From assembly GCA_022414725.1 (NCBI GenBank), contig JAJSRW010000760.1, forward strand, positions 27,950-91,949: a stretch of DNA of 64,000 nt. The letters run 5' to 3'. Source of the stretch: Microglena sp. YARC (lineage: Eukaryota > Chlorophyta > Chlorophyceae > Chlamydomonadales > Chlamydomonadaceae). Positions 2,126-64,000 of this stretch are shown piece after piece. Positions within the stretch are counted from its first letter, which is position 1, and every line of letters starts with the position of its first letter. Below the pieces are notes generated by a model that worked only from the letters and a program-made list of their open reading frames with translations, was not told the DNA's origin and did not search any database. The translations under genes were made by a program, and so were the position numbers.

Positions 2126-2129
2126 CGCA

Positions 2130-2549: not shown

Positions 2550-2550
2550 T

Positions 2551-4645: not shown

Positions 4646-4701
4646 TGGTAAATGTACTGCATTATATGGTATGTGTCATAGCTTTTCTCTTCACCTACCA
4701 G

Positions 4702-14998: not shown

Positions 14999-15195
14999 TC
15001 ATAGACAGGCCAGTGTTGGCCCAAAACAAGCCCCCTCTCCAACTTCCGGGGGGCGGGGGGAGTCTTCCAAAAATAGTATGAATGTTGCGTGCATAGGCTC
15101 TGACGCAGCGTAGGAGAGAGCCCATAAAGCTTGTTCTTGGCAGTGAGTGACGGTGTCCAGCCAGCTTTCCTGGCCAGTCACTGGGCCCAACCTAA
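14999..15195 (-). CDS. Possible terminal exon of unknown gene
   Basis: Minus-strand frame ending in TGA at 14,999-15,001. It encodes about 60 residues including ESWLDTVTHCQEQALWALS and ILFLEDSPRPPEVG. TGTAA, the usual green-algal poly(A) signal, follows seven bases after the stop. Three upstream tandem copies of its first half carry an acceptor-like CCCACAG. I do not recognise the protein and see no linked exon. Confidence 0.25.
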
Positions 15196-15525
15196 AGTTT
15201 GTTGGGGGCGTGTATAGTCTATAACGCAATGTAGGACACTGGCCCATAAATCTTGTTCTCGGCAGTGTGTGACGTTGTCCAGCCAGCTCCCCTGGCCAGT
15301 CACTGGGCCCAACCTAAAGTCTGTGGGAGGCGTGCAACGGCTCTAATGCAGCGTAGGACACTGGCCCATAAAGCTTGTTCTCGGCAGTGAGTGACGGTGC
15401 CCATCCAGCTCCCCTGGCCAGTCACTGGGCCCAACCTAAAGTCTGTGGGAGGCGTGCAACGGCTCTAATGCAGCGGAGGACACTGGCCCATAAAGCTTGT
15501 TCTCGGCAGTGAGTGGCGGTGTCCT
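15090..15525 (-). repeat. 122-bp tandem repeat, four copies
   Basis: CCCATAAAGCTTGTTCT recurs at about 15,121, 15,243, 15,364 and 15,487. On the minus strand each unit contains GCCTCCCACAG or a variant followed by ACTTTAGGTTGGGCCCAGTG. The repeats lie upstream of, and partly match, the minus-strand frame at 14,999. Confidence 0.9.
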
Positions 15526-18960: not shown

Positions 18961-19400
18961 TAGGTCAGACAATTTTGGGGGGCCTCTCCAGGGGCCTCAA
19001 CACCCTGTTACCAACGCTATAGAGGTGTTAGGCAATTGTTATTGGCATGTTGGGTGTGGGGTAACGTTAATATATTGCAAGGACAACAAGAGTTGTATTA
19101 AGGTGCCGATGTGTCACTCGGCCTCTGTGTGTTATTGTCCGACTTGTATGTCGGCACCCGAGTAGGCAAAGTACACATGGGTCCCTGTTCCCACCAGGAC
19201 CCGCGTTGTCTGCCGCCGGGCGTTCAGGCTAGCTTTGGCCTGCACGCCACTATGCAGTACTATGAAGTACGCATTAGATCTTTCCTATATATCGCCCTAT
19301 TGCGCTTAATTGCTAACTTCACTCCATTGAGTCTACAGTGTAAACAACTACGACTGAAACCGTGCAACACTTAATAAGTTGTAACAATTCTAATGAACTG
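18960..19400. other. Unassigned region
   Basis: An 87-codon plus-strand frame (19,111-19,374) has no recognisable family. Nothing else is supported. Confidence 0.4.
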
Positions 19401-19503
19401 CTTCTTGCCCAACCCCCCTAGAACAAACCTGGCCCAGGCTGATCTCTTGAGCTTCTTGCCCAGGCCCCCTAGAACAATCCTGGTCCAGGCTGATCCCTTG
19501 AGC
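19401..19503. repeat. 51-bp direct duplication
   Basis: Two copies of CTTCTTGCCCA...CTAGAACAA...CCAGGCTGATC, 51 bp apart, in the region downstream of the hydrolase gene. Confidence 0.85.
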
Positions 19504-19802
19504 TTCGCGTTGGTTAGCAATTATCTTAGCACAATATACAGACAGAAAATTCTATTAATTAAAAAGGACATAGAAAGGTAATAGACATGTCCAATCGTCG
19601 AGGTTCAGGGCTTTGATACACCACGGAACTATAAACAAACATAACTAAATAGTAACAATCCGACTCACGGCATCCTGTCCAAACATAATTTTTATAATTC
19701 CTATATAAACGACGCCTGTGGTCTGGATCCACTTGGACTTGCTCCAGGCCCAGAGTCCTAATATACCGGTGTAGGCTGGAGGGACTTGCCAACTCTTTAT
19801 TC

Positions 19803-19986
19803 CTAGATTGTGAATGAATACTGTAGGCCACTGCCTTCGCATACGTCCACAATCTTGCGTTGCAAGTCGCCTACTACCTCTGCATCAACAGGAGCTGCTT
19901 GCTTCGCAGACGCCATGGCAAGAGAGGCTCTTAAGTAAGACGCCCACAGCAGCAACATGGCTTGGCTTGTTTCTCGAACTTTGGAC
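19803..19986 (-). CDS. Hydrolase terminal exon
   Basis: After acceptor CTGCTTAG, G completes an Arg codon begun by the previous exon. Sixty residues follow, including AMLLLWASYLRASLAM, then TAG at 19,803-19,805. AATAAA overlaps the next bases on the minus strand. The Leu/Trp-rich helix fits the C-terminal helix that follows the catalytic His in this fold. Confidence 0.75.
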
Positions 19987-21451
19987 CTAAGCAGCATGAT
20001 GGGCATTGGCATTGGCATGGGTTTCGGTGTTTGTGCATGGCTTGGCTTCTTTCTAGAACTTGGGACCTAAGCAGCATGATGGGCATTGGCATGGGTTTCG
20101 GTGTTGGTGCATGGCTTGGCTTCTTTCTAGAACTTAGGACCTATGCAGCATGATGGGCATTGGCATGGGTGTCGGTGTTGGTGCATGGCTTGACTTGTTT
20201 CTAGAATTTGGGACCTGTATGTGAGTGGTTAATTGGGTATGAGGGGTTTGTGTGTAATTGGTTAATTGGATAATTGGTTAATTGGTTAATTGGGTATGAG
20301 GGGTTTGTGTGTATTTGGTTAATTGGTTAATTGGTTAATTGGTTAATTGGTTAATTGGGTATGAGGGGTTTGTGTGTAATTGGTTAATTGGTTAATTGGA
20401 TATGAGGGGTTTGTGTGTAATTGGTTAATTGGGTAATTGGTTAATTGGGTAATTGGTTAATTGGGTATGAGGGGTTTGTGTGTAATTGGTTAATTGGGTA
20501 TGAGGGGTTTGTGTGTAAGTTACATTCCAGGGGTAGGTCAAATAGGCTAAAGAAACTTTCCCAACCGTGATATGAAGGGCTTTAAAAGAAAAAGCATTGA
20601 TGAACTGAACCCCAAGGACCTTAGAGGCATGATGGGCATTGGCATTGGCAGGGGTTTCGGTGTTGGTGCTTTTTTGTGTTGGCGTTTGTTGGTGTTGGTG
20701 TTTGTTGGGTGTTGTGTTGGGTGTTGTGGTGTGGGTGGGTGTTGGTGTTGGTGCCCGTTGGGTGTTGGTGGGTATTGGAAGGGGGGTGAGTGTGGGTGTG
20801 TTTGAGAGGGAGGTTGCATGTAGTTGGTTTGGAGGTTGGATAGGGGAGTATAGGTTCGATGGTGGTGGTGTGGTGAAGCAGGATGATGGGAACAGGAAGG
20901 TGTGTGTGTGGGGTGCGGTGTGTGTGTATGTGTGTGTGTGTGTGGGGGGGGGCTGATTGATGCTATACAGCCAGACTGCCCTCTCTGACCCCAGGCAGTG
21001 AGCAGGCTTCGAAGGATGATAGGCCATGTAATCGAACTAGCCAAATATGCAAGTGGGCTGTTTGGTAGCTTAGGTCAAGGTCCTACCTGTTAGCCTTGTC
21101 CAACGAGCATGCGGAGCTCTGTCCACCCTGTCAGCCTTGCCCAACGAGCACACTGGGATCTGTCCTACCTGTCAGCCTTGCCCAACGAGCATACGGAGCT
21201 CTGTCCACCCTGTCAGCCTTGCCCAACGAGCACACTGGGATCTGTCCTACCTGTCAGCCTTGCCCAACGAGCATACGGAGCTCTGTCCACCCTGTCAGCC
21301 TTGCCCAACGAGCATACCAAGCTCTGTCCTACCTGTCAGCTTTGCAAAACGAGCACACTGAAATCCGTCCTACCTGTCAGCGTTGCACAACGAGCATGAT
21401 GAACACTGCAGAAATTTGAGCTGATCAAGGATGCTGACATGACCCCTGACT

Positions 21452-21523
<72 letters not shown>

Positions 21524-23313
21524 CAGGCGGGTCACATATATACATATGCATATATATATGTCTATATACTAATGTAATCAAAGTAGCCAACATTGTTTGA
21601 AATATGATTGGTAGCTTAGGTCAAATTGCAATCTGTCAGCCTTGCCCAACAAGCACACTGAGCTCTGTCCTACCTGTCAGGCTTGCTCGACGAGCACACT
21701 GAGACCCGTCCTACCTGTCAGCCTTCCCAACGAGCACACCGAGCTCTGTCCTACCTGTCAGGCTTGCCCAACAAGCACACCGAGCTCTGTCCTACCTGTC
21801 AGCCTTGCCCAACAAGCACACTGAGCTCTGTCCTACCTGTCAGGCCTGCCCAACAAGCACACCGAGCTCTGTCCTACCTGTCAGCCTTGCCCAACAAGCA
21901 CACCGAGCTCTGTCCTACCTGTCAGCCTTGCCCAACAAGCACACTGAGCTCTGTCCTACCTGTCAGCCTTGCCCGACGAGCACACTGAGACCCGTCCTAC
22001 CTGTCAGCCTTGCCCAACGAGCACACTGAGCTCTGTCCTACCTGTCAGCCTTGCCCAACGAGCACACTGAGCCCTGCAGAAATGTGAGCTGGTCCAGGAC
22101 GCTGAAGTGGCCCGCCTGCAAACACCCAGGTGCACATAATTGCATGTGCGTTAGGGTTTAGGGTTTAGGGTCTAGGGTAAGCCAAGTCTAGGGGTAGCCA
22201 AGTAGGCTAGAGGGACACCAGTGTGCGTTTACAGTGGCGTGTAGTGTGTAAACAGTGGCGTACAGCGTAGTGTAGTGTAGTGTAGTATAGTGTATTCAGT
22301 GCACCACACCCAGCCCCACCACCCAGCACCACACCGCAACATAAGCTGACTGTGGAGCGCACTGCCCTTTGGGGCTGACATGGACAGCTTGCAGGTGAGA
22401 ACCAGTGTGCGTATACAGTGTAGTGTAGTGTAGTGTAGTGAGGGAAAATGTGAGTTGATCCAGGACGCTGAAGTGGCCCGCCTGCAAACACACATGTACA
22501 CATGTTTGCATGTACATTATAGTCTAGGGGTAGCCAAATAAGCTAGAGGAAGTTGCAACCCTCAAATTATCAAAGCTTATCTTTTTTACTAGGAGCAGCA
22601 GCTTCTAGGCAGCTCCCTTGACTTGCAACCCTCAAATGATCTTAGCTTATCTTTTTTACCAGGAGCAGCAGCTTCTAGGCAGCTCCCTTGACTTGCAACC
22701 CTCAAATGATCTTAGCTTATCTTTTTTACTAGGAGCAGCAGCTTCTAGGCAGCTCCCTTGACTTGCAACCCAGCCAAACCAAAAGCAAAGTTGTGCATCT
22801 GGAAGCTGACAAAATCGGTTTTCCATTACTGTTCAAAATCTAGGGGCTTAGCCCAGTGGCTGCCTCAGGGAGCTGCTGAGAAGCTGCTGCCTGTAGTTGA
22901 AAAGAAAAACTAATGATCAACATGACTCTGGAATATTATAATATAATATCAATTATGATTCTGGAATATCAGGCAAAGCCGGATTAACAAATTCTTCTTT
23001 AGTGCATGGCCCGGTCCCTGACAAATCGCAATCACAAAACGGACACATATAACATATTACATTACATTGGCATCGACAAGCAATTGTTGACCCAAGCCAA
23101 GCCAAGCCATTGTTGACCCAAGCCAAGCCAATGTCATCGCCAAGCCACCGTTGACCCAAGCCAAGCCAAGCCAAGCCAAGCCATTGTCATCGACAAGCCA
23201 TTGTTAACCCAAGCCAAGCCAAGCCATTGTCATCGGCAAGCCATTGTTAACCCAAGCCAAGCCAAGCCAAGCCATTGCCTTTGTTGGCCCAAGATAAGCC
23301 CGCTCCACAACAT

Positions 23314-23355
<42 letters not shown>

Positions 23356-26300
23356 CTTCAACAAATCCTCAGAAAAAGAAAAGCAATATTGCAGCAAGCA
23401 AGCAAGCATTATTATCAGCACTTATTATATAACCTAACCGATTTTAATCATCATCTGAGCCGCCTTCTTATCCAGCTATGCTCCAGTTGTCAAAACATTG
23501 TGAGTCTAGCTGCTCCGGAGGGTTTAGGGTTCAGGGTTTTTAGGGTTCAGGGTTTGGAGTTTTAGTCTCCATTTGGCAAGGCATTGGAATTCCAAACAAC
23601 AAAGAAAGCACAAATATCATAATAACCACACCTGTCTGATTTCAACCATCACCTGAGCTGCCCTATTATCCAGCTTTGCTCCAGTTGTCAGAACATTAGG
23701 AGTCTAGCTGCTCTCCCTTTGTCAATGCATTGGAATTCGAAACAACACCGAAAGCACAAACATCATCATAACCCCACCTCTCTGATTTCAACCATCACCT
23801 GAGCCGCCCTATTCTCCAGCTGTGATTCTCTTTTCTTGTTTGTGTGTTGGAATCACGAACAACACATGCAGCACACCATGCATTTGATGGTATAGGTACC
23901 CACCTCTCTGATTTTAACCATCACTTGAGCCGCCCTAATCTCCAGCTGTGGTTCTCTTGTCTTGTTTGTGCGTTAGAATCACGAACAACACATGCAGCAC
24001 ACCATGCATTTGATGGTATAGGTACCCACCTCTCTGATTTTAACCATCACTTGAGCCGCCCTAATCTCCAGCTGTGGTTCTCTTGTCTTGTTTGTGCGTT
24101 AGAATCACGAACAACACATGCAGCACACCATGCATTTGATGGTACCCACCTCTCTGATTTTAACCATCACTTGAGCCGCCCTAATCTCCAGCTGTGGTTC
24201 TCTTGTCTTGTTTGTGCGTTAGAATCACGAACAACACATGCAGCACACCATGCATTTGATGGTATAGGTACCCACCTCTCTGATTTTAACCATCACTTGA
24301 GCCGCCCTAATCTCCAGCTGTGGTTCTCTTGTCTTGTTTGTGCGTTAGAATCACGAACAACACATGCAGCACACCATGCATTTGATGGTATAGGTACCCA
24401 CCTCTCTGATTTTAACCATCACTTGAGCCGCCCTAATCTCCAGCTGTGGTTCTCTTGTCTTGTTTGTGCGTTAGAATCACGAACAACACATGCAGCACAC
24501 CATGCATTTGATGGTATAGGTACCCACCTCTCTGATTTTAACCATCACTTGAGCCGCCCTAATCTCCAGCTGTGGTTCTCTTGTCTTGTTTGTGCGTTAG
24601 AATCACGAACAACACATGCAGCACACCATGCATTTGATGGTATAGGTACCCACCTCTCTGATTTTAACCATCACTTGAGCCGCCCTAATCTCCAGCTGTG
24701 GTTCTCTTGTCTTGTTTGTGCGTTGGAATCACAAACAACACATGCAGCACACCATGCAGTTGATGCTATAGTGTTTGTCTTCTTCGACCTTCGTGTCATG
24801 GTTGGGCAAGTCCCTTTAGCCTATTTGGCCTACCCCTCTACTGTAACATACAAGTCAATAGGAACACACCTCTTTGATTTCAACCATCACTTGAGCCGCC
24901 CTCTTATCCAGCAGCTCTCCATTAGTCAAAGCTTCAAAGAACTTCTTGTAGTTAGCACTCTTTGGGATGCAGTCACCGTTCTTGGCCAGCCCTACCACCA
25001 GTGCAGGCGGCTTACACTCTTGTAGACCAGGCAGCGAAGAAGGGTACCTGTCAAACACATAAGTTGAAATCGGTTCAAAAACAACAAAAAAATGGGGGCA
25101 GGATGCTTGTAGTTAGCACTCTTTGGGATGCAGTCGCCGTTCTTGGCACGCCCTGCCACCAAAGCAGGGGGTCTGAATGCTTGCAGGCCAGGCAACGAGG
25201 AAGGGTACCTGTGAAACAAATAGGTAACGTCCCCAAAACAACAAGTCAGAATGCTTGCAGTTTGGTGGAAATCCTTCAGTACATATCGAAGCAGGATGCT
25301 TTCAGTCAGCACTCTTCGGGGTGCAGCCGCCATTCTTGGCAAGCCCTACCACCAAAGTAGGGGGTCTGAATGCCTGCAGACCAGGCAGCGAAGAAGGGTA
25401 CCTGTCAGACAAATAGGGTGAAAATCCTTTCAAAAAATAGATATAAAAAGGAGTAGGATGCTTGTAGTTAGCACTCTTCTGGATGCAGTCACCATTGTTG
25501 GCCAGCCCTACCACCAGTGCAGGCGGATTACACTCTTGTAGACCAGGCAGCGAAGAAGGGTACCTGCCAAACACATAAGTTGAAATCGTTTCAAATACAA
25601 ACAAAAAATGGGGGCAGGATGCTTGTAGTTAGCACTCTCTGGGATGCAGTCACCGCTCTTGGCAAGCCCTACCACCAATGCATGGGGACTGAATGCTTGC
25701 AGTCAAGGCAGCGAGGAAGGGTACCTGCCAGACAAATAGGGTGAAAATCCTTTCAAAAACAATCGATATAAAAAGGAGTAGGATGCTTGTAGTTAGCACT
25801 CTTTGGGATGCAGTCGCCGTTGTTGGCAAGCCCTACCACCAAAGCAGGGGATCTGAATGCCTGCATACCAGGCAGCGAAGAAGGGTACTTGCAAAACACA
25901 TAGGGTAACAATCCTTTCAATAAAATAAACAAAATGGAGCAGGAGGCTTGTAGTTAACATGTTTTTGAATGCAGTCTCCGTTCTTGGCAAGCTCTATCAC
26001 CAATGCATGGGGACTGAATGCTTGCAGACCAGGCAGCGAATAAGGGTACCTGTAAAACAAATAGGAAAGGTCCCTAAAACAAGCCTCCAGTTGTACCTCC
26101 CCCCCCCCCCCCCCACACACACACACACCACCACCATGTAGAGTGCAAAGCTGACACAGACAGCCCTGGAGGGCCATCCTCTCTGAGCTGCCCAAAATGG
26201 ACACCTAGGACTTGCCCATGAGAAGGGACCAGGCGCTGTCATCCCTTTGGGAAAGAGGAGGTGCAATCCATGAATACTGGTATCAAAGGACAATCCATCA

Positions 26301-26838
26301 TAAAACCCTATCAAACATGTCATCCCCCCCCCCCCCCCCCCCACCACCACCGCCCTGGTTCACACTTGCACCACTTGCAATTGTACAGACAGGGCAAAAC
26401 AAAACATGTAAACAAGCCATTAGCATACGTAGATCGAAGTATACCACCCCTCCCACCCACCCCCACTACTCCCCCACTACTCCCCTACCATGTGTGCAAG
26501 CCTGACGCAGACAATCAATTAATAACAGATGCATCGCATCCATACACATCTTTTCTCATACCTCCCCCCCCACCCCCACCCCTCACACACCCCAACACCC
26601 CCCCACTACTCCCCCACCATGTGTGCAAGCCTGACGCACAGACAATCAATTAATAACAGATGCATCACATCCATACACATCTTTGCTCATAACTACCCCC
26701 CCCCCCCCCCTACTCACACACCCCCAACACACACCCCCACTACTCCCCCACCATGTGTGCAAGCCTGACGCAGACAATCAATTAATAACAGATGCATCAC
26801 ATCCATACACATCTTTGCTCATACCTACCCCCCCCCCC

Positions 26839-26869
<31 letters not shown>

Positions 26870-28417
26870 CACACACACCCCACTACTCCCCAACCATGTG
26901 TGCAAGCCTGCCGCAGTTATCAATTAATAATAGATGCAACATATCCATACACATCTTTCCCTCCCCCCCCCCCCCCCCCCCCCCCCCCCTGGAGGAAAGA
27001 AGCTAGACCAGAATTTTCCAGCCCGGGGATAACCGGTCACCCTTAAGCCCTAAACCCTGAATCCCCTAAACCCTACCCCCCCCCCCCCCCCCCCCGGGCT
27101 GGAAAAGTCCGGTCTAGCCTCCCCCCCCCCCCACACACCATGTTGTGTGCAAAACCTGACACAGATAATACCCCAGGAGTGGACACATTACATCCACCCT
27201 CCAGTCCTACCTACTCCCCCCCACCGTGTCCTGCGCAAACCTGACACAGACAATAAATCAATAATGGATGCAACCCATCCATCCGCATCTCGGCTCATAC
27301 CTGCCAGCTACCCTGCGCCATTGCACTTGATCATCATCTATCAGATGATGGGAATTGAACCCACGCGGAATATGTCTAAGCGCTTTAGTCAGCTACACTG
27401 CCCCAATGCACTCGATCATCATCTGTATCTGATGATGGGAATTGAACCCACGCAGAATATATCTACACACTTTGGTCAGCGATACTGCCCCAATGCACTT
27501 GATCATCGTCTGTATCAGATGCAGAAGATGGGACTCAAACCCACGCGGAATATATCTACGCACTTTAGTCAGCTATACTGCGCCAATGCACTCAATCACC
27601 ATTTGTATCAGATGATGGGAATTGAACCCACGCGGAATATATCTACACACTTTAGTCAGCTATCCTGCGCCAATGCACTCAATCACCATCTGTATCAGAT
27701 GATGGGACTCGAACCCACACAGAATATATCTACGCACTTTAGTCAGCTATACTGCGCTAATGCACTCAATCACCATCTGTATCAGATGATGGGTCTTGAA
27801 CCCACGCAGAATATATCTACGTGCTTTAGTCAGCTGTTCTGCGCCAATGCACTCAATCACCATCTGTATCAGATGATGGGACTCGAACCCACGCGGAATA
27901 TATCTACGCACTTTAGTCAGCTATCCTGCGCTAATGCACTCAATCATCGTCTGTATCAGATGATGGGTCTTGAACCCACGCAGAATATATATACGTGCTT
28001 TAGTCAGCTATCCTGCGCTAATGCACTCAATCACCATCTGTATCAGATGATGGGTCTTGAACCCACGCGGAATATATCTACGCACTTTAGTCAGCTATAC
28101 TGCGCCAATGCACTCAATCACCATCTGTATCAGATGATGGGTCTTGAACCCACGCGGAATATATCTACGCGCTTTAGTCAGCTATTCTGCGCCAATGCAC
28201 TCTGGATTGCCTGCCTCAGCATCCCTTCCCTTCACGCTCCCCTTCCCGTCCTTCTTTCCTCCTCTAGTTTGTTTCCTCTCTTGGACTTGACCTAGTTTGT
28301 TTTTTCAGGTTTATGGGGGCGCCTCAAAAACCCTCGTGCTTCCTGTTATAAAATTGGATGGTCTGCAGGCTGTGCTGCTGTCCTGTCTCAGCAGTGATTT
28401 GCTGAGTTGATGTAACG

Positions 28418-28476
<59 letters not shown>

Positions 28477-29507
28477 CTCGATCATCACCTGATCAGATGA
28501 TGATCGATTACAGTGGCATAGTATACCTGACAATACCTACCCCCCCCCCCCCCCCCCCCCCTGTACTAAAGTTTGGGGTGGGGTGGGGTGGGGATAAGAC
28601 TCCAGGACCACAGATATTTAGGGCGATTTAGAGCATAGGTTACTTTATAAAATGACCGTCAAATCGATGAGCGCGGCCCGGGTACAGACAAGACATTATG
28701 GAGGTGTACGGTGACTTTAGCCAGCTCCGGCTTACGCTATGGAGTCCTTAACTTCACGTCCTGAGTAAACGGTATTACACGGATGTAAGAATTTCAATTT
28801 CAATTATGGAGGTGTGTTTGTAATGGATAAATATGTAAAAATATGACAAATCAGACAAATAATTAAATAATTTCGATGATAAAACCCCTGAAATCTCATA
28901 CGCTCATACCTGATCCCCTCCACCACATACATATATATGTATATTTATACCAGTAAAAACTAAGCATATTTATATATCTATATATCTAATCTCTGCACAA
29001 ACCTGATCCCCTCCACCATATCCATATATAGATAACAGTACAAAATAAACATATATAAATATCTATATATCTAATCTTTGCTCATACCTGATCCCCTCCA
29101 CCATATACATATATATATGCCGGTACAAAATATATGTATATAAATATCTATATATATAATCTCTGCTCATACCTGATCCCCTCCACCATATACATATATA
29201 TCTGCCGGTACAAAATAAATATATATAAATATCTATACATATAATCTCTGCTCATACATAATCCCCTCCAACATATACATACACATCTGCCGGTACAAAA
29301 TAAAAATAAATAAATATCTATATCTATAATCTCTGCTCATACCTGATCCCCTCCACCATGTACATATATATCTGCCGGTACAAAATAAATATATACAAAT
29401 ATCTATATAAAATCTTTGCTCATACCTGATCCCCTCCACCATATCGTATGAACCGTCTACAGGGTCTAGAAGCATTAGACCTGCAATGCTGATGCCAGCC
29501 AGACCAC
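19803..29507 (-). CDS. CLH: Chlorophyllase-like alpha/beta hydrolase, C-terminal four exons
   Basis: Partial gene; the N-terminal exons lie beyond the upstream repeat array, outside the window. Exons on the minus strand are 29507-29426, 25047-24870, 22115-22042 and 19986-19803. All junctions are GT-AG and phases join exactly, giving 171 residues and a stop. Family evidence: LLDPVDG (Asp at visible residue 14), a C-x-P followed by NYKKFF (53-64), and AGHFSVLDQ (His89). These match the acid and histidine of the chlorophyllase Ser-Asp-His triad. The Asp-His distance of 75 is close to the ~71 I recall for plant enzymes. The Ser nucleophile motif (GHSxG) should lie in a missing upstream exon. The expected role is hydrolysis of chlorophyll or a related ester, probably plastid-associated. 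Substrate is inferred from family only. Introns are 2.1, 2.8, 4.4 and at least 34.5 kb. Confidence 0.72.
19987..20230 (-). repeat. Acceptor-edge copies of the hydrolase terminal exon
   Basis: About three ~79-bp units. On the minus strand each reads GCCCATCATGCTGC, acceptor TTAG, then GTCCCAAGTTCTAGAAA, a diverged copy of the exon start GTCCAAAGTTCGAGAAA. A further fragment lies near 20,612-20,650. They sit upstream of the real exon and are cut off inside it. Confidence 0.8.
20220..20520. repeat. TTGGTTAA / GTATGAGGGGTTTGTGTGTAA repeats
   Basis: Octamer TTGGTTAA runs alternate with six or so copies of GGGTATGAGGGGTTTGTGTG, in the last hydrolase intron. Confidence 0.9.
20650..20955. repeat. 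GTGTTGGTGTTTG-rich low-complexity region
   Basis: G/T-rich sequence of irregular GTTGGTG units, ending in a GTGTGTG tract with a short G run. Long minus-strand frames here are low-complexity artefacts. Confidence 0.8.
21085..21373 (-). repeat. 41-bp donor-edge repeats, second block
   Basis: About seven 41-bp units. On the minus strand each reads GCTCGTTGGGCAAGGCTGACAG, split as CAG|GTAGGACAGA, the end and donor of the GHFSVLD exon. They lie directly downstream of the nonfunctional exon copy at 21,374. Confidence 0.88.
21374..21445 (-). pseudogene. Frame-damaged copy of the catalytic-His exon
   Basis: Encodes a GHVSILDQ-like segment and ends in GACAG|GTAGG like the real exon. It is 72 nt instead of 74 and its AG acceptor (GTAGTCAG) leaves it out of phase with the preceding exon, so inclusion would break the frame. 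It has its own donor-edge array beneath it. Confidence 0.7.
21454..21522. repeat. (TA)n microsatellite
   Basis: Nearly uninterrupted AT repeat. GCAGGCGGGTCAC just after it (21,523-21,535) resembles the acceptor edge of the His exon in inverted orientation. Confidence 0.9.
21630..22041 (-). repeat. 41-bp donor-edge repeats, first block
   Basis: About ten units of period 41 bp directly downstream of the intact His exon. Each holds roughly the last 26 bases of that exon, the donor GTAGGACAGA and a few intron bases. They differ by rare substitutions (CGACGAGC against CAACAAGC). Confidence 0.92.
22042..22115 (-). CDS. Hydrolase exon with catalytic His
   Basis: 74 nt after GTGTTTGCAG, phase 0 at the start. 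Encodes AGHFSVLDQLTF and ends with AG, completed as Arg by the next exon. GHxxxLD is the family's histidine motif. Donor GACAG|GTAGGA. Confidence 0.75.
22200..22445. repeat. GTGTAGTGTA-rich repeats
   Basis: Two blocks of TGTAG pentamers follow near-identical CCAGTGTGCGT(T/A)TACAGTG motifs. Fills part of the third hydrolase intron. Confidence 0.8.
22448..22505 (-). pseudogene. Acceptor-edge copy of the His exon
   Basis: Minus strand reads TGTGTTTGCAG then GCGGGCCACTTCAGCGTCC and runs ~39 bases into the exon before ending in TGTAG repeats. It lies 333 bp upstream of the real exon and has no donor. Confidence 0.75.
22555..22770 (+). repeat. 72-bp tandem repeat, three copies
   Basis: Each unit holds CTTATCTTTTTTACTAG, then GAGCAGCAGCTTCTAGGCAG. 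The second part matches the start of the candidate exon at 4702 (CAGCAACTTCTAGGCAG), so these are acceptor-edge copies upstream of the decayed exon copy that follows. Confidence 0.85.
22771..22912 (+). pseudogene. Decayed copy of the exon at 4702
   Basis: Shares GTGCATCTGGAAGCTGACA and most later bases with 4760-4879. Stop codons interrupt the frame and the donor is lost (CTAATGATC). It lies antisense inside a hydrolase intron. Confidence 0.65.
23050..23285. repeat. AAGCCAAGCC / TTGACCC repeats
   Basis: AAGCCAAGCCATTGTCATCG-like units of irregular length. The first segment (CATTGGCATCGACAAGCAA) resembles dispersed segments at 5637 and 14,985. Confidence 0.8.
23315..23354. repeat. Poly-G tract of 40
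   Basis: Longest homopolymer in the window. The assembled length is likely approximate. Confidence 0.95.
23430..24865 (-). repeat. Donor-edge repeats of the FFEAL exon, 126-bp units
   Basis: Eight near-identical units (23.86-24.77 kb; period 126 bp, once 120) and three diverged ones (23.43-23.82 kb). On the minus strand each has acceptor-like ACCACAG, 42 bases encoding LEIRAAQVMVKIRE, then donor GAG|GTGGGTACC. The 42 bases copy the end of the exon at 24,870 (LDKRAAQVMVEIKE). The plus-strand open frame of 393 codons here is a by-product of the period. Confidence 0.88.
24870..25047 (-). CDS. Hydrolase exon with NYKKFF motif
   Basis: 178 nt. One base completes an Arg codon, then 59 codons follow. 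Encodes PPALVVGLAKNGDCIPKS, NYKKFFEAL and LDKRAAQVMVEIKE. Acceptor GTTTGACAG, donor AAAGAG|GTGTGT. Only this copy joins the 5' half (repeated upstream) to the 3' half (repeated downstream). Confidence 0.78.
25106..26056 (-). repeat. Acceptor-edge repeats of the NYKKFF exon
   Basis: Six copies, 155-195 bp apart, at about 25.21, 25.40, 25.56, 25.72, 25.89 and 26.05 kb (acceptor positions). Each has a CAG or AAG acceptor, GTACCCTTCTTCGCTGCC and ~100 bases of the exon up to GCTAACTACAAG, then diverges (CATCCT). Some keep the frame; the copy at 25.72 kb has an early stop. None has a donor. Confidence 0.88.
26095..27310 (-). repeat. ~125-bp repeats with poly-C, diverged donor-edge units
   Basis: About six units contain, on the minus strand, GTATGAGCAAAGATGTGTAT, an A/T-rich stretch, TCTGCGTCAG, CTTGCACACATGGTGGGG and a C/G run. 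GTATGAGCAAAGAT equals the start of the intron after the DPVDG exon, so the units probably derive from that donor edge. Runs of 14-30 C occur at 26,100, 26,325, 26,695, 26,830, 26,957 and 27,080. CCCTAAACCCT lies at 27,043-27,077. Confidence 0.7.
27320..28205 (-). repeat. Tandem array of tRNA-like units, ten copies
   Basis: Period 87-88 bp (once 95). On the minus strand each unit reads TGGCGCAGTATAGCTGACTA and, 44 bases later, GGTTCGAGTCC or GGTTCAATTCC. These fit RNA polymerase III box A and box B at tRNA-like spacing, and the second forms a T arm (GTGGG/CCCAT). No acceptor stem pairs, so these are not functional tRNAs. The 382-codon plus-strand frame is a by-product of the 87-bp period. Confidence 0.75.
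28421..28473. repeat. (CT)n microsatellite
   Basis: About 26 CT dinucleotides in the first visible hydrolase intron. Confidence 0.95.
28562..28895. other. Unassigned intron sequence
   Basis: Unique-looking sequence with a short GGGGT repeat at its start. No feature is recognised. Confidence 0.4.
28895..29425 (-). repeat. Donor-edge repeats of the DPVDG exon, ~84-bp units
   Basis: Six copies downstream of the exon. On the minus strand each reads ATATGGTGGAGGGGATCAG then GTATGAGCAGAGATT, the exact end and donor of the exon, followed by TATATAAATA-rich intron. Copies start near 28,910, 29,003, 29,086, 29,170, 29,262 and 29,343. Confidence 0.9.
29426..29507 (-). CDS. Hydrolase exon with DPVDG motif
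   Basis: 82 nt: two bases, 26 codons and two bases. Encodes AGLMLLDPVDGSYDMVEGI. Acceptor CAACGCAG (minus strand), donor ATCAG|GTATGAG. The acceptor choice is supported by phase and by similarity of the upstream array units. A later AG (CATCAG or TTGCAG) is possible and would shorten the exon by 14-22 bases. Confidence 0.7.
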
Positions 29508-29790
29508 CTGCGTTGGGTGGTGATGGGTTGGGTTGGGTTAAGTTGGCTTGGTTTGGTTTGGGATTAGACCTGTTACGCTGATGCCAGCCAGACCACCTGC
29601 GTTGGGTGGGGATGGGTTGGGTTGGGTTGGATTTAGTTGGGTTTAGTTGGTTTGGTTTGTTTATGCATTAGACCTGCAACTCTGATGCCAGCCATACCAC
29701 CTGCATTGGGTTGGGATGGGTTGGGTTGGGATGGCTTGGGTTGGCTTGGTTTGTTCATGGATTATACCTGCAACACTGATGTCAGCCAGA
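29508..29790 (-). repeat. Transitional units at the array edge
   Basis: The first three units next to the DPVDG exon are the most exon-like. They keep the acceptor AG (AACGCAG, AACGCAG, AATGCAG on the minus strand), GGCATCAG and GTCTAAT as in the exon. From the fourth unit on, the acceptor is AATGCGG and the last motif is GTATAAT. Confidence 0.85.
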
Positions 29791-32700
29791 CCACCCGCAT
29801 TGGGTTGGGATGGGTTGGGTTGGGTTGGGATGGCTTGGGTTGGCTTGGTTTGTTTATGGAATATACCTGCAACACTGATGTCAGCCAGACCACCCGCATT
29901 GGGTTGGGATGGGACGGGTTGGGTTGGGATGGCTTGGGTTGGCTTGGTTTGTTTATGGATTATACCTGCAACACTGATGTCAGCCAGACCACCCGCATTG
30001 GGTTGGGATGGGATGGGTTGGGTTGGGATGGCATGGGTTGGCTTGGTTTGTTTATGGATTAAACCTGCAAAACTGATGTCAGCCAGACCACCCGCATTGG
30101 GTTGGGATGGGTTGGGTTGGGTTGGGATGGCTTGGGTTGGCTTGGTTTGTTTATGGATTATACCTGCAACACTGATGTCAGCCAGACCACCCGCATTGGG
30201 TTGGGATGGGATGGGTTGGGTTGGGTTGGGATGGCTTGGGTTGGCTTGGTTTGTTTATGGATTATACCTGCAACACTGATGTCAGCCAGACCACCCGCAT
30301 TGGGTTGGGATGGGTTGGGTTGGGTTGGGATGGCTTGGGTTGGCTTGGTTTGTTTATGGATTATACCTGCAACACTGATGTCAGCCAGACCACCCGCATT
30401 GGGTTGGGATGGGTTGGGTTGGGTTGGGATGGCTTGGGTTGGCTTGGTTTGTTTATGGATTATACCTGCAACACTGATGTCAGCCAGACCACCCGCATTG
30501 GGTTGGGATGGGTTGGGTTGGGTTGGGATGGCTTGGGTTGGCTTGGTTTGTTTATGGATTATACCTGCAACACTGATGTCAGCCAGACCACCCGCATTGG
30601 GTTGGGATGGGTTGGGTTGGGTTGGGATGGCTTGGGTTGGCTTGGTTTGTTTATGGATTATACCTGCAACACTGATGTCAGCCAGACCACCCGCATTGGG
30701 TTGGGATGGGTTGGGTTGGGTTGGGATGGCTTGGGTTGGCTTGGTTTGTTTATGGATTATACCTGCAACACTGATGTCAGCCAGACCACCCGCATTGGGT
30801 TGGGATGGGTTGGGTTGGGTTGGGATGGCTTGGGTTGGCTTGGTTTGTTTATGGATTATACCTGCAACACTGATGTCAGCCAGACCACCCGCATTGGGTT
30901 GGGATGGGTTGGGTTGGGTTGGGATGGCTTGGGTTGGCTTGGTTTGTTTATGGATTATACCTGCAACACTGATGTCAGCCAGACCACCCGCATTGGGTTG
31001 GGATGGGTTGGGTTGGGTTGGGATGGCTTGGGTTGGCTTGGTTTGTTTATGGATTATACCTGCAACACTGATGTCAGCCAGACCACCCGCATTGGGTTGG
31101 GATGGGTTGGGTTTGGGTTGGGATGGCTTGGGTTGGCTTGGTTTGTTTATGGATTATACCTGCAACACTGATGTCAGCCAGACCACCCGCATTGGGTTGG
31201 GATGGGTTGGGTTGGGTTGGGATGGCTTGGGTTGGCTTGGTTTGTTTATGGATTATACCTGCAACACTGATGTCAGCCAGACCACCCGCATTGGGTTGGG
31301 ATGGGTTGGGTTGGGTTGGGATGGCTTGGGTTGGCTTGGTTTGTTTATGGATTATACCTGCAACACTGATGTCAGCCAGACCACCCGCATTGGGTTGGGA
31401 TGGGTTGGGTTGGGTTGGGATGGCTTGGGTTGGCTTGGTTTGTTTATGGATTATACCTGCAACACTGATGTCAGCCAGACCACCCGCATTGGGTTGGGAT
31501 GGGTTGGGTTGGGTTGGGATGGCTTGGGTTGGCTTGGTTTGTTTATGGATTATACCTGCAACACTGATGTCAGCCAGACCACCCGCATTGGGTTGGGATG
31601 GGTTGGGTTGGGTTGGGATGGCTTGGGTTGGCTTGGTTTGTTTATGGATTATACCTGCAACACTGATGTCAGCCAGACCACCCGCATTGGGTTGGGATGG
31701 GTTGGGTTGGGTTGGGATGGCTTGGGTTGGCTTGGTTTGTTTATGGATTATACCTGCAACACTGATGTCAGCCAGACCACCCGCATTGGGTTGGGATGGG
31801 TTGGGTTGGGTTGGGATGGCTTGGGTTGGCTTGGTTTGTTTATGGATTATACCTGCAACACTGATGTCAGCCAGACCACCCGCATTGGGTTGGGATGGGT
31901 TGGGTTGGGTTGGGATGGCTTGGGTTGGCTTGGTTTGTTTATGGATTATACCTGCAACACTGATGTCAGCCAGACCACCCGCATTGGGTTGGGATGGGTT
32001 GGGTTGGGTTGGGATGGCTTGGGTTGGCTTGGTTTGTTTATGGATTATACCTGCAACACTGATGTCAGCCAGACCACCCGCATTGGGTTGGGATGGGTTG
32101 GGTTGGGTTGGGATGGCTTGGGTTGGCTTGGTTTGTTTATGGATTATACCTGCAACACTGATGTCAGCCAGACCACCCGCATTGGGTTGGGATGGGTTGG
32201 GTTGGGTTGGGATGGCTTGGGTTGGCTTGGTTTGTTTATGGATTATACCTGCAACACTGATGTCAGCCAGACCACCCGCATTGGGTTGGGATGGGTTGGG
32301 TTGGGTTGGGATGGCTTGGGTTGGCTTGGTTTGTTTATGGATTATACCTGCAACACTGATGTCAGCCAGACCACCCGCATTGGGTTGGGATGGGTTGGGT
32401 TGGGTTGGGATGGCTTGGGTTGGCTTGGTTTGTTTATGGATTATACCTGCAACACTGATGTCAGCCAGACCACCCGCATTGGGTTGGGATGGGTTGGGTT
32501 GGGTTGGGATGGCTTGGGTTGGCTTGGTTTGTTTATGGATTATACCTGCAACACTGATGTCAGCCAGACCACCCGCATTGGGTTGGGATGGGTTGGGTTG
32601 GGTTGGGATGGCTTGGGTTGGCTTGGTTTGTTTATGGATTATACCTGCAACACTGATGTCAGCCAGACCACCCGCATTGGGTTGGGATGGGTTGGGTTGG

Positions 32701-35700
32701 GTTGGGATGGCTTGGGTTGGCTTGGTTTGTTTATGGATTATACCTGCAACACTGATGTCAGCCAGACCACCCGCATTGGGTTGGGATGGGTTGGGTTGGG
32801 TTGGGATGGCTTGGGTTGGCTTGGTTTGTTTATGGATTATACCTGCAACACTGATGTCAGCCAGACCACCCGCATTGGGTTGGGATGGGTTGGGTTGGGT
32901 TGGGATGGCTTGGGTTGGCTTGGTTTGTTTATGGATTATACCTGCAACACTGATGTCAGCCAGACCACCCGCATTGGGTTGGGATGGGTTGGGTTGGGTT
33001 GGGATGGCTTGGGTTGGCTTGGTTTGTTTATGGATTATACTGCAACACTGATGTCAGCCAGACCACCCGCATTGGGTTGGGATGGGTTGGGTTGGGTTGG
33101 GATGGCTTGGGTTGGCTTGGTTTGTTTATGGATTATACCTGCAACACTGATGTCAGCCAGACCACCCGCATTGGGTTGGGATGGGTTGGGTTGGGTTGGG
33201 ATGGCTTGGGTTGGCTTGGTTTGTTTATGGATTATACCTGCAACACTGATGTCAGCCAGACCACCCGCATTGGGTTGGGATGGGTTGGGTTGGGTTGGGA
33301 TGGCTTGGGTTGGCTTGGTTTGTTTATGGATTATACCTGCAACACTGATGTCAGCCAGACCACCCGCATTGGGTTGGGATGGGTTGGGTTGGGTTGGGAT
33401 GGCTTGGGTTGGCTTGGTTTGTTTATGGATTATACCTGCAACACTGATGTCAGCCAGACCACCCGCATTGGGTTGGGATGGGTTGGGTTGGGTTGGGATG
33501 GCTTGGGTTGGCTTGGTTTGTTTATGGATTATACCTGCAACACTGATGTCAGCCAGACCACCCGCATTGGGTTGGGATGGGTTGGGTTGGGTTGGGATGG
33601 CTTGGGTTGGCTTGGTTTGTTTATGGATTATACCTGCAACACTGATGTCAGCCAGACCACCCGCATTGGGTTGGGATGGGTTGGGTTGGGTTGGGATGGC
33701 TTGGGTTGGCTTGGTTTGTTTATGGATTATACCTGCAACACTGATGTCAGCCAGACCACCCGCATTGGGTTGGGATGGGTTGGGTTGGGTTGGGATGGCT
33801 TGGGTTGGCTTGGTTTGTTTATGGATTATACCTGCAACACTGATGTCAGCCAGACCACCCGCATTGGGTTGGGATGGGTTGGGTTGGGTTGGGATGGCTT
33901 GGGTTGGCTTGGTTTGTTTATGGATTATACCTGCAACACTGATGTCAGCCAGACCACCCGCATTGGGTTGGGATGGGTTGGGTTGGGTTGGGATGGCTTG
34001 GGTTGGCTTGGTTTGTTTATGGATTATACCTGCAACACTGATGTCAGCCAGACCACCCGCATTGGGTTGGGATGGGTTGGGTTGGGTTGGGATGGCTTGG
34101 GTTGGCTTGGTTTGTTTATGGATTATACCTGCAACACTGATGTCAGCCAGACCACCCGCATTGGGTTGGGATGGGTTGGGTTGGGTTGGGATGGCTTGGG
34201 TTGGCTTGGTTTGTTTATGGATTATACCTGCAACACTGATGTCAGCCAGACCACCCGCATTGGGTTGGGATGGGTTGGGTTGGGTTGGGATGGCTTGGGT
34301 TGGCTTGGTTTGTTTATGGATTATACCTGCAACACTGATGTCAGCCAGACCACCCGCATTGGGTTGGGATGGGTTGGGTTGGGTTGGGATGGCTTGGGTT
34401 GGCTTGGTTTGTTTATGGATTATACCTGCAACACTGATGTCAGCCAGACCACCCGCATTGGGTTGGGATGGGTTGGGTTGGGTTGGGATGGCTTGGGTTG
34501 GCTTGGTTTGTTTATGGATTATACCTGCAACACTGATGTCAGCCAGACCACCCGCATTGGGTTGGGATGGGTTGGGTTGGGTTGGGATGGCTTGGGTTGG
34601 CTTGGTTTGTTTATGGATTATACCTGCAACACTGATGTCAGCCAGACCACCCGCATTGGGTTGGGATGGGTTGGGTTGGGTTGGGATGGCTTGGGTTGGC
34701 TTGGTTTGTTTATGGATTATACCTGCAACACTGATGTCAGCCAGACCACCCGCATTGGGTTGGGATGGGTTGGGTTGGGTTGGGATGGCTTGGGTTGGCT
34801 TGGTTTGTTTATGGATTATACCTGCAACACTGATGTCAGCCAGACCACCCGCATTGGGTTGGGATGGGTTGGGTTGGGTTGGGATGGCTTGGGTTGGCTT
34901 GGTTTGTTTATGGATTATACCTGCAACACTGATGTCAGCCAGACCACCCGCATTGGGTTTGGGATGGGTTGGGTTGGGTTGGGATGGCTTGGGTTGGCTT
35001 GGTTTGTTTATGGATTATACCTGCAACACTGATGTCAGCCAGACCACCCGCATTGGGTTGGGATGGGTTGGGTTGGGTTGGGATGGCTTGGGTTGGCTTG
35101 GTTTGTTTATGGATTATACCTGCAACACTGATGTCAGCCAGACCACCCGCATTGGGTTGGGATGGGTTGGGTTGGGTTGGGATGGCTTGGGTTGGCTTGG
35201 TTTGTTTATGGATTATACCTGCAACACTGATGTCAGCCAGACCACCCGCATTGGGTTGGGATGGGTTGGGTTGGGTTGGGATGGCTTGGGTTGGCTTGGT
35301 TTGTTTATGGATTATACCTGCAACACTGATGTCAGCCAGACCACCCGCATTGGGTTGGGATGGGTTGGGTTGGGTTGGGATGGCTTGGGTTGGCTTGGTT
35401 TGTTTATGGATTATACCTGCAACACTGATGTCAGCCAGACCACCCGCATTGGGTTGGGATGGGTTGGGTTGGGTTGGGATGGCTTGGGTTGGCTTGGTTT
35501 GTTTATGGATTATACCTGCAACACTGATGTCAGCCAGACCACCCGCATTGGGTTGGGATGGGTTGGGTTGGGTTGGGATGGCTTGGGTTGGCTTGGTTTG
35601 TTTATGGATTATACCTGCAACACTGATGTCAGCCAGACCACCCGCATTGGGTTGGGATGGGTTGGGTTGGGTTGGGATGGCTTGGGTTGGCTTGGTTTGT

Positions 35701-59700: not shown

Positions 59701-61099
59701 GGGTTGGGATGGCTTGGTTGGCTTGGTTTTTTATGGATTATACCTTGATGTCAGAGACGCATGTCAGACCAGATGGATTATTTCTGGTTTGGGTTGGATG
59801 GGTTGGGTTGGGTTTGGGGATGGCTTGGGTTGGCTTGGTTTGTTTATGGATTATACCTGCAACACTGATTGTTCAGCAGACCACCGCATTGGGTTGGGCA
59901 TGGGTTGGGTTGGGATGGGATGGCTTGGGGTTGGCTTGGGTTTGGTTTATGGGATTATACCTGCAACACTGATGTCAGCCAGACCCACCCGCATTGGGTT
60001 GGAATTGGGTTCGGGGTTGGGTTGGGTTGGGTTGGGATGGCTTGGGTTGGCTTGGTTTGTTTATGGATATACCTGCAACACTGATGTCAGCCAGACCACC
60101 CGCATTGGGTTGGGATGGGTTGGGTTGGGTTGGGATGGCTTGGGTTGGCTTGGTTTGTTTATGGATTATACCTGCAACACTGATGTCAGCCAGACCACCC
60201 GCATTGGGTTGGGATGGGTTGGGTTGGGTTGGGATGGCTTGGGTTGGCTTGGTTTGTTTATGGATTATACCTGCAACACTGATGTCAGCCAGACCACCCG
60301 CATTGGGTTGGGATGGGTTGGGTTGGGTTGGGATGGCTTGGGTGGCTTGGTTTGTTTATGGATATACCTGCACACTGATGTCAGCCAGACCACCCGCATT
60401 GGGTTGGGATGGGTTGGGTTGGGTTGGGATGGCTTGGGTTGGCTTGGTTTGTTTATGGATTATACCTGCAACACTGATGTCAGCCAGACCACCCGCATTG
60501 GGTTGGGATGGTTGGGTTGGGTTGGGATGGCTTGGTTGGCTTGGTTTGTTTATGGATTATACCTGCAACACTGATGTCAGCCAGACCACCCGCATTGGGT
60601 TGGATGGGTTGGGTTGGGTTGGGATGGCTTGGGTTGGCTTGGTTTTGTTTATGGATTTATACCTGCAACACTGATGTCAGCCAGACCACCCGCATGGTGG
60701 GTTGGGATGGGTTGGGTTGGATTGGGATGGCTTGGGTTGGCTTGGTTTGTTTATGGATTATACCTGCAACACTGATGTCAGCCAGACCACCCGCATTGGG
60801 TTGGGATGGGTTGGGTTGGGTTGGGATGGCTTGGGTTGGCTTGGTTTGTTTATGGATTATACCTGCAACACTGATGTCAGCCAGACCACCCGCATTGGTT
60901 GGGATGGGTTGGGTTGGGTTGGGATGGCTTGGGGCTTGGCTTGGTTTGTTTATGGATTATACCTGCAACACTGATGTCAGCCAGACCACCCGCATTGGGT
61001 TGGGATGGGTTGGGTTGGGTTGGGATGGCTTGGGTTGGCTTGGTTTGTTTATGGATTATACCCTGCAACACTGATGTCAGCCAGACCACACCGCCTTGG

Positions 61100-64000
61100 C
61101 GTTGGGATGATGGGTTGGTTGGGGGTTGGGATGGCTTGCTTTGGGCTTGGTTTGTTTATGGAGTTATGGATACCTGCAACACTGATGTCAGCACAGACCA
61201 CCCGCATTGGGTTGGGATGGGTTGGGTTGGGTTGGGATGCTCTTGGCGCAACACATCGCGCACTGCTTGGTTCTGTTCTCATGGACTTTACCCCTCATAC
61301 CTGCAACACTATCAGATGCTCAGCCCAGGCACCGCATGGTTGGCGATGGGATGGGTCTGGGTTGGGTTGCGGATGGCTGTGTGGCCTTGGTTTGTTTATG
61401 GAATTAACCTCTGCCAACCATGCTGAATGTCAGCCCAGACCACAGACCGCGCATTGGGTTGGGACGGGGTTGGGTTGGGGTGGATGGCTTGGCTGGCTTG
61501 TTGTTTATGGACCACCTACTGACCAGGCTGCAAATGACAGACCTCAGCCACCACCCGCCCATCTGTGCTGTTGGCATGGTTATCGGGTTGGGTTGGAATG
61601 GCTTCGGGCTTTGGCCTTGGCTTATGTGTCACCACTGGACTCACCTCATATCCTTGCAACACTAATGTCAGCCAGGCCACCCGACATGATGGATGTTGGC
61701 GCACTGGGTTGGTTGGTTGTATGTGGGATCTTTGGCTTGAGTTTGCTTGGTATTTGTTTATGCAAGCTATACCTCTGCCACGACTCGATCGTCAAGCAGA
61801 CCGACCCGCCACTCTGGTTGGGCATGGGTTGGGTTGGTTGGATGGCTTTGGCGTTGGCTTGGTTTGTTATCGATTTTTATACCCCTGCAGACAGCTAATG
61901 TCACGCGCAGCACCACCGCAGTTGCAGAGTTACAGGAATGGGTCTGGGATTTGGAGTTGGGATGGCCTGGCGTTGCTTGGTTCTGTTCATGGATGCTCGG
62001 TAAGAGTGACCTGCAACACGTATGATGTCGAGCCAGTATAGGGTCCAACCCGCGATTGGTGGAGGGCTATGGGCGCTTGGGTTTTCGCTGCGTTGGGATA
62101 TAGGCTGGGTTGCTTGGTTGTTTATGATTCATATATACCATGACTCACTGCGATGTCAGCCAAGGACCACCACGCAGTTTGGGTTGGATGGGTCTGCGAG
62201 ATTGGGCCTTGGGATGGCTTGGTTGGCTTAGGTTTGTTATGATTTATGACCCTGCCAAACTGATGTCAGCCCGAGACCACCCGCATTGGTTGGATGCTTG
62301 GTGGGCCTGGATTCGCTTGGGATTCGGCGGCGTTCTGCTCTTCATCCGCCCACCCTGCCAAACACTGATGTCCCACCAGACCCCCCGCCATTTGGCCAGT
62401 TGGGAGGTTGGCGTTGGAGTGCCGAATGCGCTTAGGTTGGCTTGTTATGTTTATGGATAGTCCCTATTTACCTCTCAAACACCCTAGATGTCACGCTCAG
62501 ACACCCGCATGCGGTTCGGATGGGTCTGAGTTGGCTTGGCATGGCTTGGGTTGCGCTTGGCTTTGTTTATGAGGATTATACCGTGGACCAACCCACTCGA
62601 TAATCAGCCCAGACGTCACCCGCATTTGGTTGGGATTGGGTGGCGTTTGCGTTGGGATAGGCTTTGGGTTGGTGCTTGGTTGTTATGGATTATATACCTG
62701 CAAACACGTGATGTCAGCCAGGACCACCCGACATTAGGTTGGTACTGGGATTGGGCTGGGTTGGATGCTTGAGGTTGGGCTTGGCTTGTTTATCTGGATT
62801 CTACACGCTCAACAACGGATAGTAGCCAGACGCCACCCTCCATGTTGGGTTGGGATTGGGTTGGGTTGGCTTGGTTTTGTTTATGGATTTAGAACCCTGC
62901 AGAACTCACTGAATGTCAGCCCAGACCCGACCCGCATTGGGTTGGATGGGTCACCAGATAGGGTTGCACTGTTTGGGGTGGCTTGGTTGGCGTGCGTCTT
63001 GTTTATGGATATCCCTTAACCGCGAGACAGCTGAGGTCAGAGCCAAAGCCACCCACATTGGGTTGGGATGAGGATGGGTTGGGTTGGTGGGATGCATGGG
63101 TTGGTCAGCTCCTTCGGTTTGTTTATGGATCCGTGAATAACTCTGCTAACACTCATGTCCAGCCAGAACCACCCGCACTTTGGGTTGAGGATATGGGTTG
63201 GGTCTGGGGTCTGGGTTGGGTTGGAGATGGCTTGGGTACCATGACATGCGCTTGTGTTTGTGTTTATGGTACCCATACCCAACACTGATGTCAGCCAACC
63301 ACCCGCATTGTTGGCGATGGTGTGGGTTGGGTTGCCGATTGGCCTGGGCTGGCCCCTTTTGCTATTGATTAACTACCCCTGCAAACACTATGTCAGCCAG
63401 ACCCAACACGCATTGCCACGAGTTGGGATGGATGGGATTGGTCTGGATGTTGGACTGGACCTGGTTGGCTTGGTTTGTTTATGCGATTATACCTGCAACA
63501 CTGATGTATCACCAGACCACGCATGGTGTGATGGATTGGTTGGGGTTGGAGTACTCAACACTGATGTCAGCTCACGCTGATTCCCCGCACCATTGGGCTT
63601 GGGGATGGTTTTGTGGGTTGGGTTGGGATGGCATTGGGTTGGCTTGGGTTGTTTATGGGATTTACCCTGCAACAGGTAACTGACGTCAGCCAGACCACCC
63701 GAGGTGGGTTGGGATGGGATGGGTTGGGTTGGGTTTGGGATGGCTTGGGTTTGGGCTTGGTTTGTTTATGGAGTTAATACCTGCAACAAATGATGTCAGC
63801 ACAGACCACCCCGCATTGGGTTGGTGATGGGTTGGGCACTCGGGTTGGGTGGCTTGGGTTGGCTTGGTTTGTTTATGGATATAGCCTGCAACACTGATGT
63901 CAGCCAGGCCACCCGCATTTGGGTTGGGATGGGTCTGGGTTGGGTTGGGATGGCTTGTGGTTGGCTTGGTTTGTTTATGGAATTAACCTGCAACCATCAC
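61100..64000. other. Error-rich end of the satellite array
   Basis: Units are recognisable but carry many scattered insertions, deletions and substitutions that neighbours do not share. The pattern looks like uncorrected long-read sequence at low coverage rather than inherited divergence. Confidence 0.6.

Follow-up and report, generated by a model that had tools for sequence, protein, structure and literature searches.

The growth of introns is usually explained through transposons. Introners, which are known in algae, form dispersed families whose members insert as complete introns, and a further kind of repeat, the lancelet 'mirage' minisatellite, was reportedly first described in Nucleic Acids Research in 2002. 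The sections of two papers used here present mirages in Adh3, the globin genes BflGb6 and BflGb9, TnC, and PGBD5 (PMC3087553, PMC3902484), with Adh, TnC, and PGBD5 as the further lancelet cases (PMC3902484). According to these sections, mirage units of 10–160 bp lie at 5′ or 3′ exon boundaries, many of them keep AG or GT, the clusters show concerted evolution, and there is one authentic exon; BflGb6 carries three and six units in two haplotypes and is spliced normally as judged by reverse transcription PCR (PMC3087553). Excerpts of the literature also describe the Rogers model, in which AGGT segments duplicated in tandem in the genome give rise to new introns (PMC3087553), and a case of intron gain by tandem duplication in the potato RdRp gene (PMC4974935). 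Herein, we analyzed a 64,000-nucleotide stretch of the green alga Microglena sp. YARC (hereafter the window; contig JAJSRW010000760.1, positions 27,950 to 91,949), in which the introns of a predicted hydrolase gene contain tandem copies of the edges of their own exons. Many introns of this genome hold tandem arrays that cross the splice junction into the exon. These arrays probably arose through tandem duplication in place, blind to the boundary, together with array turnover, which was tolerated with one intact exon remaining.

Splice junctions of the hydrolase gene

All seven internal splice junctions of the hydrolase gene were spanned by direct repeats. Probes of 32 nt across each splice junction were matched to the window with up to 10 mismatches. 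All acceptor-probe matches fell upstream of the exon concerned and all donor-probe matches downstream of it; within the window, none was found on the wrong side or on the opposite strand. The gene is predicted on the minus strand, as are all features of this section, with four exons: A (DPVDG, 29426–29507, flanked by AG and GT), B (NYKKFF, 24870–25047), C (the His exon, GHFSVLD, 22042–22115), and the terminal exon D (19803–19986), which carries the stop codon. The predicted splices A/B, B/C, and C/D keep the frame with AG/GT borders, and the joined exons give 171 residues ending at the stop codon. For exon A, an alternative in-frame acceptor 27 nt further in (CAG/GT, the slash marking the junction) would move the start to 29480. 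The only Pfam family listed for the joined exons was Chlorophyllase (PF07224), with residues 8–122 aligned to profile positions 145–265 at 14.3 bits (E = 0.018), which is below the gathering score of 26 for a gene only partly in the contig; on this weak match, the product may be described as chlorophyllase-like. A protein search with the spliced product found no homologues at E 1e-3, and a comparison with PDB gave no match up to E 1.

The largest array repeats the acceptor edge of exon A in 99-bp units (29508–64000). It covers approximately 34 kb, the probe matching 274 times from 29596 to 63912, and reaches the end of the contig, which is the last base of the window, so that the 5′ exons of the gene are missing. 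The AG of the first possible acceptor was kept in only 2 of the 274 copies and lost in 272, whereas the CAG/GT alternative was retained in at least 244; the number of live decoys in this array depends on which of the two acceptors is the true one. The array is degraded at 43500–49000 and 61500–64000 and near-uniform elsewhere, as assembly noise or an old array might leave it. The donor edge of exon A is repeated in six copies of 85 bp detected by the probe, all downstream (28909–29425). Further on, an array of 132-bp units (26471–26985) contains 16 exact nucleotides around donor A (AG/GTATGAGCAAAGAT; score 32 vs. a maximum of 26 in 500 shuffles) and may be what remains of a donor-edge array of exon A, decayed and with poly-G.

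The other three exons were flanked in the same manner. Exon B has six 161-bp acceptor-edge copies upstream (25048–26065) and a 126-bp donor-edge array downstream (23429–24869), in which nine copies were detected by the probe and a tenth, decayed copy beyond the probe limit was found separately at 23464–23429. Exon C has a single acceptor-edge copy (22446–22491, first exon base 22481) and ten donor-edge copies of 41 bp (21632–22041), nine of which keep GT. These are followed by C′, where sequence comparison showed the His exon a second time at full length (21374–21445, 72 nt vs. 74), and by a second array of eight donor junctions (21080–21373; junctions 21373–21086), the first being that of C′ itself, of which five keep GT and three have GG. 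The exon C donor probe thus matched 18 copies downstream. Exon D is preceded by a 74-bp acceptor-edge array of three copies (19987–20223), two detected by the probe and the third located separately at 20223–20184, outside the probe limit. Over the probe matches of exons C, B, and A, the donor dinucleotide was present in 14/18, 9/9, and 6/6 copies, and over those of exons B, C, and D, the acceptor dinucleotide was present in 5/6, 1/1, and 2/2 copies.

Most counts of the first-pass annotation of this stretch were reproduced, namely six acceptor copies of exon B, one of exon C, and three of exon D. The eleven donor copies given for exon B came to about ten, and the ten given for exon C were correct for the first array but left out C′ and the second run of eight donor junctions. 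Since C′ is full-length, the statement that one intact exon lies between the arrays is true only for one frame-compatible exon; C′ is 2 nt short, and the frame would change if it were spliced at its AG. Hundreds of decoy splice sites had also been proposed for the introns, which would hold if the CAG/GT alternative of exon A is the true acceptor but not if the first possible one is.

We did not accept the junction counts within the gene as proof of a boundary effect, since interior points were nearly as well covered: in the region 19300–33000, direct repeats spanned 72%, 67%, and 73% of the interior points in the three hydrolase introns, and finding all seven junctions spanned therefore has a chance of about 0.1 in this gene. 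A boundary effect is not shown by the window alone, and the strong evidence lies outside it.

Splice junctions of other genes in the assembly

The assembly to which the window belongs (568 Mb, 2,390 contigs) was searched for kinesin motor exons, a family selected without regard to repeats. The sample consisted of 30 loci supplied by the search (128 places) and 20 stretches picked by hand from the same table, some rows of which already hinted at copies. It held 53 exon matches, from which 41 acceptors and 32 donors were retained as lying above the score limits and off the profile ends, the rest being dropped. Direct repeats spanned 28 of the 41 acceptors, with the partner upstream in all 28 and downstream in none, and 21 of the 32 donors, with the partner downstream in all 21 and upstream in none. 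The rates for acceptors and donors were 15/22 and 11/18 at the supplied loci and 13/19 and 10/14 at the picked ones. Neither inverted repeats across the junctions (0/41 and 0/32) nor spanned junctions in shuffled loci as a control (0/41 and 0/32) were found. Splice junctions of other genes thus also lie inside repeat units in this family, a test of the kind that the first-pass annotation had proposed.

The copies differed widely in number and divergence. In 25 of the 30 supplied loci, divergent copies, mostly approximately 70–97% alike, overlapped the exon match. One 9-kb stretch contained 17 partly overlapping acceptor-edge matches from 2.2 to 0.04 kb before the exon and three donor-edge matches after it, and the flanking sequence retrieved for the 53 kinesin exon matches held no full-exon copies. 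At the protein level, the kinesin, AAA_6, and DHC_N2 tables (257 places), sorted by a simple classification rule, yielded 45 truncated copies: 25 of the donor edge, all downstream, 18 of the acceptor edge, all upstream, and two of neither kind.

Several kinesin loci deserve separate mention. Two of them, L021 and L035 (C1, 190.745 Mb and 190.771 Mb), share a near-identical exon and the same acceptor array approximately 26 kb apart; this is probably a recent gene duplication that carried its array along, and both were counted among the acceptors. A kinesin intron at L039 holds a 2-kb satellite of 82 copies of 25-bp units (3220–5274), with which the exon edges tested did not match. A group of 14 places (e.g., C505:20564–21244 and C2346:58315–58989) gave weak kinesin matches of 43–54 bits, starting at profile positions 1–44 and reaching 239–243 in a single open frame of 330–1017 amino acids, and is perhaps a separate intronless kinesin-like family.

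Dynein genes offered a view of array turnover. In one of them, seven truncated copies come after the P-loop exon; the end of this exon agrees with dynein heavy chains of solved structure, the majority aligning along all 107 residues, and the best matches were to entry 8glv, presumably from Chlamydomonas. The paralogues L060 and L061 have a common exon-side breakpoint and a homologous unit and differ in copy number and unit length. Long unit alignments, indels included, were 83–89% identical within one gene, 85–92% within the other, and 71–76% between them. Considering that the units are homologous and share a breakpoint, yet are more alike within than between genes, the array likely predates the gene duplication and was later homogenized.

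These loci also bear on whether the arrays are an assembly artefact. The 99-bp array is cut off by the contig end and is degraded at about 43–49 kb and 61–64 kb, as a faulty assembly might have it; yet divergent copies were found in 25 of 30 kinesin loci and in two dynein genes, on several large contigs, and we regard an artefact as extremely improbable. Only for the 99-bp array is the number of copies uncertain.

Side, placement, and fate of the copies

The polarity follows from the geometry of tandem duplication. When a duplication crosses an acceptor, the head of the exon is copied ahead of itself and only the last head runs on into the exon, leaving truncated copies upstream; across a donor, only the first copy belongs to a whole exon, leaving truncated copies downstream. 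In a simulation blind to boundaries (160 loci, four starting lengths), spanned acceptors had 65 upstream partners and 1 downstream, and spanned donors had 62 downstream and 1 upstream, giving 127 junctions on the forced side and 2 on the other. The observation of the first-pass annotation that placement is never reversed thus stood for all probe matches of the window, for the kinesin junctions, and for 43 of 45 protein-level copies, whereas its proposal that such polarity calls for a special process fell away: no cause beyond tandem duplication is needed. The polarity also speaks against dispersed insertion of exon pieces. Arrival of the copies through retroposition, through reverse splicing, or on a mobile element of the introner type would find a precedent in the introners of algae, but the copies are continuous with the flank of their own intron, none of the 73 scored junctions carried an inverted repeat, and none of them had a copy on the wrong side; we rejected this origin as having next to no probability.

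A duplication process focused on boundaries, in which features of the junction such as R-loops, stalled forks, or a positioned nucleosome provoke tandem duplication there, would predict that junctions are covered more often than interior points. Direct repeats spanned 49 of the 73 kinesin junctions (0.67), compared with 51% of 13,160 interior points of introns at distances above 250 nt and 13% of 53 exon midpoints. Donors showed a local high, acceptor units centered on the junction with a median of approximately 70 nt of exon, and the unit medians of 158.5 and 175 bp in the kinesin sample are near nucleosome size, which may link the two. Acceptors, on the other hand, showed no peak: coverage was level at 0.68 at −150, 0, and +30, that is, across 150 nt of the intron side, and dropped only inside the exon, to 0.15–0.24 at 80–100 nt. 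Edge-derived copies made up a mean of 40% of the repeat-covered flank, about 60% being of other derivation, and the high interior coverage of the hydrolase introns points the same way. The first-pass annotation had edge repeats dominating over purely intronic ones, which fails in the kinesin sample and is correct for most of the repeat length in the window owing to the single 34-kb array.

Whether a blind process suffices for the junction rate was judged from further simulations with 40 loci per setting. When insertions followed the duplications and introns started at 150–340 bp, junction coverage was 0.50–0.76 and interior coverage 0.39–0.56, which fits the observed 0.67 and 0.51; simulations from 2,000-bp introns with fewer events gave junction coverage of 4/40 and 8/40. 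Short starting introns are reasonable, since the median introns of six core-Reinhardtinia (volvocine) algae are 198–343 bp in the portion of the source used (PMC8226300). Boundary targeting is therefore not needed to explain the junction rate.

Several observations weigh against a purely blind process and its reconstruction. With insertions interleaved and the same starting lengths, the blind model gave junction coverage of 0.33–0.40 and interior coverage of 0.50–0.55, below the junction rate observed, and the parameters of the simulations were chosen by the analyst. The runs that fit overpredicted exon-midpoint coverage (0.30–0.68 vs. 0.13 observed) and the edge-derived share (0.44–0.84 vs. 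0.40 observed). Kinesin donor coverage was not level, with 0.66 at the junction, 0.47–0.50 at +50 to +70, and 0.53–0.69 at +80 to +210 (32 donors). Acceptor units were not uniformly placed and carried less exon than uniform placement predicts (mean exon share 0.39; Kolmogorov–Smirnov (KS) p = 0.015 for the 22 of 28 units that did not exceed 260 bp), although for donor units under the same size limit, uniform placement was not rejected (KS p = 0.73; n = 16 of 21). It is possible that copies with long exon pieces were mis-spliced and purged, lowering the exon share of acceptor units. In addition, the kinesin splice sites were inferred with a scoring matrix and not from transcripts, and indels in the dynein units lower the identity between the paralogues, whose short, mostly exonic alignments were 85–86% identical between genes.

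Taken together, a mild boundary preference may remain compatible with the data, as one blind schedule underpredicts the junction rate, whereas we consider boundary-focused duplication unlikely as the explanation of the arrays. The broader proposal, that a process aimed at boundaries with junction-centered, nucleosome-sized units chiefly drives intron growth and keeps supplying half-exons for new introns or exons, seems improbable to the same degree.

The truncated copies themselves appear to be dead DNA. Exon and copy differed at 8.1% of first, 7.3% of second, and 16.6% of third codon positions, compared with 14.0% for the intronic portion of these hits, which are not independent of one another; the third position was thus close to the intron level and the first and second at about half of it, as predicted for a free copy beside a constrained exon. 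An indel occurred somewhere in the exon or intron part of 182 of the 251 exon-overlapping hits. Arrays of splice sites used in recursive or alternative splicing would account for the many copies that keep AG or GT, including the CAG/GT of the 99-bp units, but the neutral codon pattern, the loss of the first possible exon A acceptor in nearly all units, and the frequent indels led us to reject the recursive-splicing reading, and a function of this kind is very unlikely.

The preferred explanation, boundary-blind duplication in place, may be put as follows. Ordinary tandem duplication, by slippage or unequal exchange, would copy an exon edge as it copies any other sequence, and should be tolerated as long as one intact exon survives, the neutral reading that the first-pass annotation had mentioned and set aside and that we judge the better one. 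Within each gene, the arrays would then turn over and homogenize, presumably through the same slippage or unequal exchange, as the one dynein paralogue pair suggests. Introns of ordinary algal length (approximately 200–350 bp) could have grown to kilobases by such duplications. Splicing probably stays accurate through exon definition: two splice sites are required, of which a half-exon has just one, so its decoys would do little harm.

Other repeats of the window and comparison with known systems

A second gene of the window, MYB-like and on the plus strand (Pfam 5.4e-23 for 7685–8836), showed similar traces. Its presumed last exon, starting at 14318, is preceded by two acceptor-edge copies found by sequence comparison, one at 14158 and an incomplete one at 14035 (14035–14360), and a donor edge at 12920–12952 is followed by a weak copy at 13024–13052 that was read by eye (12920–13052) and gave no blastn report at 1e-4. 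The exon at 14318 is putatively assigned to this gene, and those around 12952 and 14318 would be parts of one gene. An 87-bp array of approximately 10 copies (27305–28202) has, in many of its copies, a GGTTCAAGACCC-like motif resembling a tRNA T-loop; a tRNA reading was rejected, as ARAGORN found none and Rfam none at the gathering score in 1–30000. Arrays of 113, 122, and 172 bp at 2128–4650, 15087–15524, and 17103–18838 were tied to no exon identified in the window, which also contains telomere-like CCCTAAA repeats. A DNA search with window positions 28900–29700 gave 109 matches of 69–89% identity on many contigs, mostly to query positions 610–760, among the 38 of 292 candidates scored.

With approximately two thirds of the scored kinesin junctions inside tandem repeats, and truncated exon copies at many stages of decay, the genome provides natural replicates for asking how the spliceosome selects the true site among near-identical decoys, whether intron growth ignores boundaries, and whether half-exons feed intron gain. 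Gene-prediction programs call for caution, as the copies may be called exons.

Like introners, the arrays are repeat-derived intron sequence in an algal genome, but they consist of head-to-tail copies of the neighboring exon edge. They share head-to-tail units and array turnover with intronic minisatellites, whose units do not run into coding sequence as these do. Intron gain by AGGT duplication likewise involves tandem duplication in or near exons with splice signals; in that model, a new intron arises inside an exon, whereas here existing introns lengthen and the exon stays single. The closest counterparts are the lancelet mirages, which answer the claim of the first-pass annotation that no process of this polarity had been described. 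As in mirages, a tandem unit crosses the exon–intron boundary, with both boundary types represented (28 acceptors and 21 donors in kinesin genes); many but not all units keep AG or GT, here in the hydrolase gene; and concerted evolution occurs within clusters, here in one dynein pair, where part of the difference is due to indels. Literature searches of limited reach found no genome-wide report of mirages in an alga. Unlike mirages, which are known from few genes, the arrays involve about two thirds of the scored kinesin junctions, often at both edges of one exon, with up to 274 probe matches in a green alga. The arrays are thus of a kind already described as lancelet mirages, and what is new is their lineage, extent, and scale, which reaches 274 matches over 34 kb.

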